Assembly (NCBI RefSeq): GCF_010672085.1
Contig: NZ_JAAHHT010000065.1
Coordinates: forward strand, 1 to 35,333
Length of the DNA stretch: 35,333 nucleotides
Source of the DNA: Okeania sp. SIO3I5
Lineage (GTDB): Bacteria > Cyanobacteriota > Cyanobacteriia > Cyanobacteriales > Microcoleaceae
Reading direction: 5' to 3'
Below the pieces are notes generated by a model that searched no databases, was not told the origin of the DNA, and worked only from the letters and a program-made list of their open reading frames with translations. This document shows, piece after piece, positions 9,531 through 24,538 of this stretch (its first letter is position 1; every line of letters starts with the position of its first letter). Position numbers and translations under genes: made by a program.

Positions 9531-9762
9531 ATCAAATCCGGTAGTATCTAATACCGCCAGAAACACGTTTTGTTTTAAATTCCCCACTGTATCAGGACTT
9601 AGGCAAAGAAACCGGGTTTTTAGGAGAAATCCTTGTTTTTAACAATCAACATTGAGGAAAAAACCCGGTTTCTGGGTTAGGAAAGCGTAAGTCCTGTGTA
9701 TAACATCTATTTCCCACTTTCCCCGGTTTCTTATAACACTTCCGTTGCCCAGCGGATTTGAT
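9531..9762. mobile_element. ATCAAATCCG-family element split by a nested MITE
   Basis: ATCAAATCCG (9531-9540) is inverted at CGGATTTGAT (9753-9762). The pairing extends outward to a perfect 15 bp (ATAATATCAAATCCG), so part of it may be flank. The ends match 3159-3287. Removing the CAGGAC element at 9593-9696 and one TGTAT leaves about 123 bp, close to the 129 bp of the intact relative. Confidence 0.65.
9593..9696. mobile_element. CAGGAC-family MITE with 5-bp target duplication TGTAT
   Basis: Left end CAGGACTTAGGCA, right end GCGTAAGTCCTG. It is flanked by TGTAT at 9588-9592 and 9697-9701. The interior carries GAAACCGGGTTTTT and an inverted AAAACCCGGTTTC, so the whole 104 bp can fold back on itself. 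It sits inside the ATCAAATCCG element. Confidence 0.8.
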
Positions 9763-20297: not shown

Positions 20298-20664
20298 AGG
20301 CTACTCCTCGTCTTGTTTAATGTCTCGGACTGTCCGCCCGCGACTTCACTAAAAAGTGATAGTTGTACAGGTGTTTCTAATATTTTAGTTTCAAAAGTTG
20401 CAACTATTGGGGTATTTAAAATCTTAATTGCTGCATTAATATCTCTATCATGGAAAGCACCACAATTTAAGCACGTCCACTCCCTAACGCCTAATTCTTT
20501 TTTACCACCTTTAAATCCACAACAACTACAATGCATGACTGGTTGGCTCCCATCTATCAATAACTCTAAATTCTCTACCATACTTTTCAGCCTTTCCTTC
20601 TAAAAATGTCCTAAAAGTTCTCCATCATAAATCACTAATTGCTTTAGCTAATTTGCGATCTCTT

Positions 20665-20707
20665 GGTGCGCGTTCCCTTGCGCCTGTCGGCGACGCGGGG
20701 TCGCACC
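20665..20707. repeat. GC-rich palindromic insertion in tnpB
   Basis: GGTGCG and CGCACC form the ends of a 43-bp GC-rich block inserted between codons for GMVK and RKLAKAISD of tnpB. Removing it restores the usual TnpB spacing. Its composition differs sharply from the surrounding AT-rich DNA. Confidence 0.6.
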
Positions 20708-21267
20708 GCTTTTTAACCATCCCAGAAACATTGTCATACTTCTAAAACAATTGTTTGGTTTTTACGAATTATTTCAGTAGATAATTTATGTAGAAAATCT
20801 GCTCTAATGTCTTTTATTTTTGCATGGAGTCTAGCTATTTTTAGTCTACGTTTTTCACGACGCTGTACTGAGGTTTCGCGAAACGTTACTACTGGTTGGG
20901 TCTTAGCAAATTTACGTTGAAATTTAGCTAACTTTTTCAGGTTCTGTTTGAGTGGCTTCGGAGCTTCAATTTTATCTCCATTGATCAATGTAGCAAATGT
21001 TGAGATACCTAAATCTATACCTATATAACTTTCAGTTTTAGGTAGATATTCAGCACAAGTTTCTACAACAAAACTAGCAATGCTAGGACGGTCTGCACTA
21101 TCTTTAATTATACTTACAGAAGTAGGTTTACTAGGCAATGGTCTTGACCAAACTATTTTGATTTTTCCTACTTTTGGTAGATAGATTTTATCTTGATCAA
21201 TTTTGTAATTACCTCCTACAAATCTAGCAGTTTGCTTTGACTTTCTACTTTTAAATTGAGGTGGTTT

Positions 21268-21293
21268 TAGGGGCGAACGGCCGTTCGCCCCTA
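21268..21293. repeat. 26-bp perfect palindrome inserted in tnpB
   Basis: The perfect palindrome is centred on GAACGGCCGTTC with outer arms TAGGGGC and GCCCCTA. It adds about nine codons (GVGANGRSP) to the tnpB reading frame between the conserved CKCKRKG and KPPQFKSRKS. Similar GGGCGA/TCGCCC palindromes occur at 7581 and in the 133-bp array. Confidence 0.7.
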
Positions 21294-21671
21294 CTCCTTT
21301 TCGTTTACATTTGCAACTTTGAAAAAAGTTTTGATAAGCTTGATTTAAGTCATTCAATGATTCCTGTAATGGAGTGAATCGCTACTTATTTCAACCAAAG
21401 CAGTTCTCTCTTAGCTTGTGTTATGAATTGTTTTTGTAGTTCTGAATTACTTGGCTTTTTAACACCATTAGCATACAGTTGATTGCAATGTGCTAATGAT
21501 TGATTCCAAACATATCTGCAACAGCCAAACAGTTGACTTAGTTTTTTAATTTGGACATGATTAGGGTAGATGCGATATTTGTATCTTGCTTTCACTGTTT
21601 TCGACCTTTTTCTAACACTAAATATTAACAGCGTAGCGGATTTTTATACTATTATTATAGCATATTATTTG

Positions 21672-21759
21672 TATATAATTATGACATCGAATCATAATTA
21701 TATACTCACCATTCATCCAGGCGCTATAATCTATGATTTAGCGCCTGGATGAATGGTGA
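21672..21759. repeat. Two adjacent long hairpins
   Basis: Hairpin 1 has arms TATATAATTATGA (21672-21684) and TCATAATTATATA (21692-21704), 13 bp, with a 7-nt loop. Hairpin 2 has outer arms of 21 bp starting TCACCATTCATCC (21706) and ending GGATGAATGGTGA (21759). The pairing continues inward with one bulge to a 3-nt loop. It lies upstream of the tnpB start and could be the left-end structure of that element or an independent palindromic repeat. Confidence 0.75.
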
Positions 21760-21830: not shown

Positions 21831-21933
21831 CAGGACTAAAGCCATGCGAACCCAGAAACCCGGTTTCTCGTAGATGCTTATTGTCAAAAACAATGATTTA
21901 CCTTAGAAACCGGGTTTCTTTGCGTAAGTCCTG
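21831..21933. mobile_element. CAGGAC-family MITE with 5-bp target duplication ATCAG
   Basis: Left end CAGGACTAAAGCCATGCGAA, right end TTTGCGTAAGTCCTG. It is flanked by ATCAG at 21826-21830 and 21934-21938. Inside, AGAAACCCGGTTTCT and AGAAACCGGGTTTCT are inverted relative to each other. From 21934 to 22160 I see no gene, only AT-rich DNA with one more acccggtttct. Confidence 0.8.
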
Positions 21934-22160: not shown

Positions 22161-23816
22161 TTACCAAGTCACCCGATCGCTTAATTTCTCTAACATTTTA
22201 GGTCCAATTCCAGATACTTGATCGAGGTCTGCTAAAGATGTAAAAGGTTGATTTTTTCTTTTTTGAATAATCCGTTCTGCTAATTTAGGTCCGACGCCTG
22301 GCAGTGTTTCTAATTCTTTAGCAGTGGCAGTATTTAGATTAATTTTCTTGTTAGTATCTATTACTAAAGTTTCAGTTTCTATTAATCGCTCGCCACACTC
22401 TTTTTGCTGTTTCTCAACTTTTTTGATCAACCAGGATGGTATACCTATAGTTGCTGTTTGATAAAGTCTTTGAAATTCACGGTCAAAATGAGCTGCTACT
22501 GTGGAATTTTCTATTACTAATAAAGTTTCATCGTTGTTCTGATTAGCTGCTTTCGTCCAATTCTGAGAACCAGTAATTACAATGGAATTATCAATAATTC
22601 CAAATTTGTGATGGAGGCGATCGCCAGGGGGTAAGTTAGGTACGCCTACTGTAGATATCGGTTTTTGCCAAGTCCGATTATCAGTTTCATATTTACATTT
22701 ATTTGCCAAAGCAATTCACATCATATCTAATCCTTCACTATAGTAACGATAGGCAAAACTAGGGTCAATTAAACCTTGAATTAAGACTCTTTGTAGGGAT
22801 TTATTTTCTAGGGTATTAACTAATGGTTGTGATGAAAATACAAATAGGGATAAATTAATAGATGTTTGTGCTTTTTCTAATGTTTGATTTATTAAACCAT
22901 TTACACTTTCTTGCCAAGATTGACTACTAGAAATAGGAGAAAATTGTACGGCAACTTTTGTATCACCAACTAATACTTGCCTGGTATTTCTGAATGGTTT
23001 TTTCACACCAAATTTACTATCTGGTTTACCTCCCGGACCATCTCCCCATAAGATATTAAATTCTTCTGTGAATAATTCAGCTAATTCCAAACTTTCTATT
23101 TTTAAAAGATTATTAGCATTTCCTCGACTCAGGGGTTCTGAAAAATCCCCATGAATACCACTGGTAGTAAAATTAGCCGACGTGACAATAATACTTTCAC
23201 CATCCACAACTAAAAATTTATGGTGCATCAGACCGCTACCCTTAGAACCATCAGCAGTATCATCAATCAAGGGAACTCCTGCATTACTTAAAATTATTAG
23301 AGCATCCCTACGGTTAATTTCATCTTGACTAATCTCCCCATCCATGTTAATATCAGCAAGCTGAATAAACTCATTGTAGCGATTGCGCTCCCGTTCAGGT
23401 AGTCGATCAACCTCAGATGGACTTAAACTTCCCCAGGGACGATTGTAGGTATTTTCAATAATTACTCGCACTTTCACCCCTGCTTGATATCTTTCGGCCA
23501 AAACTTGAGCGATCGCTGGCAAACGTAACTCTTGAACTGCGACATCTACACTAGAAGTAGCATTAGTAATAGTATTAACAATTATTTCTTCGAGATTGTC
23601 TCCTAGTCTGGTTTGCTGACGTAGGGGTTCAGTGTAACTTGAAGCTTGGGATTGATTAAAGTAAGATTTAATTAAGGGGTCTTGTGGCAATGGTGATATG
23701 GGACGAACTAACTGCTGAGGTTTATTCAGACAAGCAGTTAGGCTAAAAGCCAAGAGTAAAACATAGCCAAAGCGCAGTCGAATAGAAGGAAATAGCACTG
23801 ATATTAGCAAGGTCAA
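22161..23816 (-). pseudogene. Phospholipase D-like lipoprotein with EF-hand-like loop and HhH domain, interrupted by one TGA
   Basis: A single reading frame of about 551 codons broken only by TGA at 22718-22716. The first 366 codons carry a signal peptide with lipobox LTAC (Cys29), a canonical EF-hand loop DINMDGEISQDE (155-166) and the first HKD motif (HHKFLVVD, 198-205). After the TGA, in the same frame, come IALANKCKYE, the second HKD motif HHKFGIID and a ComEA-like helix-hairpin-helix tail (LNTATAKELETLPGVGPKLAERI ... VSGIGPKML). PLD enzymes need both HKD motifs, so the stop should abolish activity unless it is read through or is a sequence error. The 5' start is uncertain: only TTG (23816) or GTG (23798) are in frame. 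The product would be envelope-anchored and may act on phosphodiesters such as lipids or DNA. Confidence 0.8.
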
Positions 23817-24139: not shown

Positions 24140-24538
24140 ATGCCGAAAAGAAAAAGGACTTTTCCGTGTGGCCATAAAGGATATGGGAGAAAATGCCATC
24201 GCTGTGAACAAGAGCAAATGGTACAGCAAAGATCTGACGAAGAAATAGCGGAAAAGCGAGAAAAAAAGTTAGAGTGGGAAGCTTCTTTCGATGGCGATTT
24301 GATAGACTTAAAGGGTTTACCAGATTATGTAGTGATAAAAGCTAGAACAATTATTTCTGGATTAAATAATAATCAAAGCTATCGGGAATTTGGAGGTAAA
24401 CGACTCCGCCACAATCGTTTTATTGTGAGTATACCTGTTACTCGTAACTATAGAATGATTTGTCAAGATTATGGGAGTTTTGTTGTACCACAGAAGGTTA
24501 TGTCCCATGAAGATTATAATGTTTGCAAACCTAAGTAG
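24140..24538 (+). CDS. Small zinc-finger protein with a RelE/ParE-like C-terminal half
   Basis: A 132-residue protein. The N-terminal MPKRKRTFPCGHKGYGRKCHRC has a Cys/His cluster (Cys10, His12, Cys19, Cys22) that should bind zinc. A charged helix (residues 30-47) follows. The rest (LKGLPDYVVIKARTIISGL ... GGKRLRHNRFIVSIPVTRNYRMICQDYGSFVVPQKVMSHEDY) has the size and strand order of a RelE/ParE-type toxin fold, ending with the typical YR...I....... H..Y pattern. No antitoxin gene is beside it: the upstream gene is divergent and downstream is gene-free. It may be an orphan or a non-toxic relative. I know similar cyanobacterial proteins but no function. The start ATG has no clear Shine-Dalgarno. 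Confidence 0.7.
   Translation: MPKRKRTFPCGHKGYGRKCHRCEQEQMVQQRSDEEIAEKREKKLEWEASFDGDLIDLKGLPDYVVIKARTIISGLNNNQSYREFGGKRLRHNRFIVSIPVTRNYRMICQDYGSFVVPQKVMSHEDYNVCKPK

Follow-up and report, generated by a model that had tools for sequence, protein, structure and literature searches.

The gene for a PLD-like helix-hairpin-helix lipoprotein in Okeania sp. SIO3I5 is interrupted by a single premature TGA. This stop almost certainly reflects one of two things: a genuine nonsense mutation that arose very recently in this lineage, or a wrong base in the assembly. A real mutation appears the likelier of the two and a sequence error a substantial but lesser possibility, a split that was made by judgement and not computed. 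The gene lies in a stretch of 35,333 nucleotides, the whole of which is referred to as the window. A sequence-only reading had offered recent nonsense mutation, sequence error or programmed readthrough as explanations. The first two fit all the evidence, whereas programmed readthrough is without support. The case is an ordinary single-stop interruption, and no evidence of recoding emerged.

The stop lies inside the second PLD domain

The whole interrupted gene was placed at 22161..23816 on the minus strand from its open reading frame, translation and Pfam matches and from near relatives, in which this region is a single open frame. From a TTG at 23816, the first start codon listed and an uncertain one, to the TAA at 22161, the frame has 551 codons before the terminal TAA. 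Its sole internal stop is the TGA at 22716..22718, which is flanked by GLDMM and IALANK. The sequence-only reading, which saw in the translation one TGA splitting an otherwise continuous 551-codon PLD frame, was therefore accurate, and the interval that it gave, 22700-22730, contains the stop.

The upstream part (22719..23816, minus strand; 366 aa) comprises a putative lipoprotein-type signal peptide, the first PLD domain with HKD1 and the beginning of the second PLD domain, with PLDc_2 matched at residues 79-257 and the PLDc active-site motif at 195-217. The downstream part (22161..22709, minus strand; 182 aa if read from a TTG) comprises the remainder of the second PLD domain with HKD2, followed by a helix-hairpin-helix (HHH_3 at residues 120-181). 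PLDc_2 was matched in Pfam with E values of 1.4e-20 for the upstream part and 1.1e-16 for the downstream part, and the PLD-like domain with an HKD motif found on each side of the stop places the gene in the PLD superfamily (PF13091). Of the 132 positions in the PLDc_2 profile, the downstream fragment matches just 58-131, which puts the stop inside the second PLD domain. Its earlier placement between two HKD halves thus holds for the HKD motifs but not for the domains.

The HKD1 motif HHKFLVVD (23202..23225) and the HKD2 motif HHKFGIID (22590..22613), both on the minus strand, were placed by hand from the translation, and their HHKF and D are near-invariant. The ComEA-like helix-hairpin-helix domain was assigned to 22167..22352 (minus strand) from a profile match positioned by hand. 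Near the start, the Cys codon at 23730..23732 (minus strand) ends the motif LTAC, which we take to be a lipobox. This Cys is present in 75 of the 76 relatives aligned there.

The PLD part resembles Nuc/NucT-type nucleases and mitochondrial cardiolipin hydrolase, and the tail resembles ComEA. PLD domains with HKD motifs are common to this gene and the Nuc/NucT-type nucleases (NF010492; PDB 6ehi, 1byr), but here two PLD domains and a helix-hairpin-helix are combined in one chain. Assignment to NucT itself (NCBIfam NF010492) was rejected, as a sister protein scored 76.2 bits against the curated cut-off of 297. The protein is probably an envelope-anchored, nuclease-like member of the PLD family, and an enzyme that processes DNA or RNA while anchored in the membrane would be a reasonable guess at its role. 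If the TGA is real, translation would break off partway through the second PLD domain, giving a product that has neither HKD2 nor the DNA-binding helix-hairpin-helix and should be inactive.

Relatives encode glycine at the position of the stop

The gene gave one match in its own 10.5 Mb genome at the threshold used, and a match in 57 of the 59 genomes searched, its own included. Among named relatives, those closest to the source genome are Okeania sp. SIO2F4, Hydrocoleum sp. CS-953 and Trichodesmium. Each of the two nearest sisters has one open frame and is ~91% identical to the window copy. The orthologues of Okeania sp. SIO2F4 (L031/L111) and Hydrocoleum sp. CS-953 (L032/L003), also ~91% identical, share its architecture; each has a conserved neighbour on one flank, and L111 has one on either flank. 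Unlike the window gene, they are single open frames with no internal stop. With several relatives further away, the alignment ends near residue 463-478 and does not take in the helix-hairpin-helix.

The interrupted frame is not a chance one: relatives read through this point in a single open frame, and at the column of the stop a Gly codon was found in all 109 aligned stretches (loci L002-L110), a count in which many genomes appear twice, by handle and by name, and from which matches without a locus are left out. After removal of duplicates, Gly was present in 90 of 90 distinct sequences and TGA in none. The sequence-only reading had proposed a check of this codon in sister strains; our comparison is between species, and every relative aligned there has Gly and none has TGA. 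Across 128 near-invariant columns (>=97% conserved), the window copy departs at the stop only, while relatives depart at 0 to 5. In tblastn, the copy aligned in a single frame from end to end with the two nearest sisters. The earlier statement that there is no further damage holds as far as it was tested. A stop absent from orthologues, with little other damage, is the pattern of a recent nonsense pseudogene. Nonsense-interrupted bacterial pseudogenes likewise carry a single premature stop that is not seen in relatives and are otherwise intact, and we found no difference from them.

The gene was constrained until recently

Before the stop, Nei-Gojobori dN/dS of the window copy was 0.238 against sister G003 and 0.240 against sister G002; after the stop it was 0.216 and 0.176, respectively. 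Values this low on both sides indicate that each part was under purifying selection until recently. By simple parsimony, 25.5 synonymous and 20.5 non-synonymous changes are private to the window before the stop, and 4 synonymous and 6 non-synonymous after it. The corresponding ratios of non-synonymous to synonymous changes after the stop in the sisters are 4 to 8 and 5 to 10, so the share is higher in the window, with counts too small to call relaxation. In columns constant in the nine relatives of the dN/dS alignment, a hand count gave 3 private amino-acid changes in the window and 3 and 2 in the sisters, which shows no relaxation. The lack of any departure in the other 127 near-invariant columns (~286 non-synonymous sites) bounds neutral drift at ~0.01 per site, about a tenth of the window branch of ~0.11 synonymous changes per site (both hand estimates). 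The gene was thus constrained until recently, as would be expected if the stop is a young nonsense mutation or a wrong base.

Readthrough of the UGA is very improbable

Constraint alone would also be compatible with programmed or significant UGA readthrough that yields the full-length protein, since intact and constrained sequence on both sides of the stop and the absence of further damage are predicted by readthrough as well. We nevertheless consider such readthrough very improbable. A programmed site would be expected to have a conserved stop, and the TGA is conserved in none of the 90 distinct relatives. The residue replaced is an invariant Gly, and such a position would be a poor candidate for insertion of tryptophan or selenocysteine. 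Folding of the 79 bases that begin with the stop showed no advantage over shuffled sequences (z -0.13), and two other stretches that were folded, one overlapping upstream and one from a sister, gave z values of 0.44 and 1.38. A UGA-reading tRNA with a TCA anticodon was not found by ARAGORN in 35 tRNA-bearing loci of this genome, a search in which 150 of 820 first-look candidates were scored and one could be missed; a TCA-anticodon pattern had 9 matches against 22 for the reversed control. The literature surveyed by title and abstract opening included nothing on this gene or on readthrough at such a site.

The source genome does have a tRNA array, a point in favour of readthrough. At L158 (G000:C368:44000-55718) there is a tRNA-like cluster that includes three members with near-identical bodies and the anticodons caa, gtt and tta, which we liken to the trn array of Anabaena. 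In Anabaena, deletion of trcR, the repressor of such a tRNA-array operon, raised the activity of lacZ reporters with UAA, UAG or UGA (PMC10272220). Nothing links this effect to the gene studied here. The related proposal that the TGA is real and is usefully read whenever a tRNA array switched on by stress makes translation less accurate, the full-length protein being made only then, is in our view even less probable. A separate predicted tRNA with anticodon TTA (L151, G000:C384:1968-2039; L195 is the whole 3,430-base contig) would read UAA and should not read UGA, and it had no match in the 34 other genomes searched. The open frame on this contig is presumably integrase-like.

A selenoprotein was rejected because no selenocysteine tRNA (RF01852) exceeded the cut-off among the 150 of 478 first-look candidates scored, the best reaching 45.0 against 47 bits at a tRNA-Leu. 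Genome-wide recoding of TGA was also rejected, as TGA terminates 3 of the 18 window ORFs examined and conserved domains elsewhere are almost free of internal stops: these occurred in 0 of 16 AMP-binding matches in the genome, in none of the ABC matches listed, and in 3 of 100 kinase matches. These three were low-scoring, at <=57.5 bits, with a single one above the cut-off, and among them had seven TAA stops and one TGA.

A split enzyme is similarly hard to credit

PLD halves can in general assemble, and a TTG at 22709 lies two codons past the TGA, where leucine is encoded by other codons in sisters G003 and G002. The gene might on this basis have been split into two assembling proteins, the second made by reinitiation at this TTG, but we give this scarcely any weight. 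Intact relatives G023 and G027 have TTG at the same place, and the TGA interrupts the second PLD domain itself. By eye, no signal peptide is apparent in the downstream part, and the lipoprotein Cys of the upstream part is conserved, so the two halves would be in different compartments. The missing export signal and the position of the stop inside a domain make a two-protein enzyme unlikely.

The neighbouring genes compared are intact

Decay of the whole neighbourhood was rejected on the ten other window genes for which frames of relatives were available, none of which has an internal stop. A broken transposase relic is also present. This relic, at 20306-21619, is a decayed transposase of IS200/IS605 type with stops and frame breaks. 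A relative of it is found in sister L111 (4075-5479) on the opposite side of the PLD gene, so the two copies inserted at different sites. A neighbour at 24140-24538 combines a ParE-like toxin domain with the zinc-binding DUF7682 and is 90-96% identical in the eight matching stretches of relatives, where it is on the same contig as the PLD gene. The window also has nine copies of a palindrome-like motif, AAACCSGGTTT (at 21856, 21907 and 22139, and within 2392-2924 and 9609-9661), and a perfect 21-base inverted repeat at 21706-21759.

In several other genomes the gene is damaged or was not found

A single in-frame stop interrupts the helix-hairpin-helix region of the gene in Nostoc sp. LPT (L078). 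In G048 the frame runs no further than HKD2, and in G044 the gene is split between two frames. In G008 a remnant was found, with a stop and only about the first 100 residues, and in G017 the first 136 residues (L023 numbering) were not found in the stretch fetched. G005 and G052 had no match among the 59 genomes searched. Some of these genomes are drafts or incomplete, and the losses in them may stem from faulty assembly. With orthologues cut short, interrupted or undetected in several genomes, the gene seems dispensable. For annotation, the window gene should be marked as interrupted, with the caution that a base error is possible. With its single premature TGA, almost certainly a recent nonsense mutation or such an error, the window copy is one more example of a gene that several cyanobacteria carry in damaged form or appear to lack.
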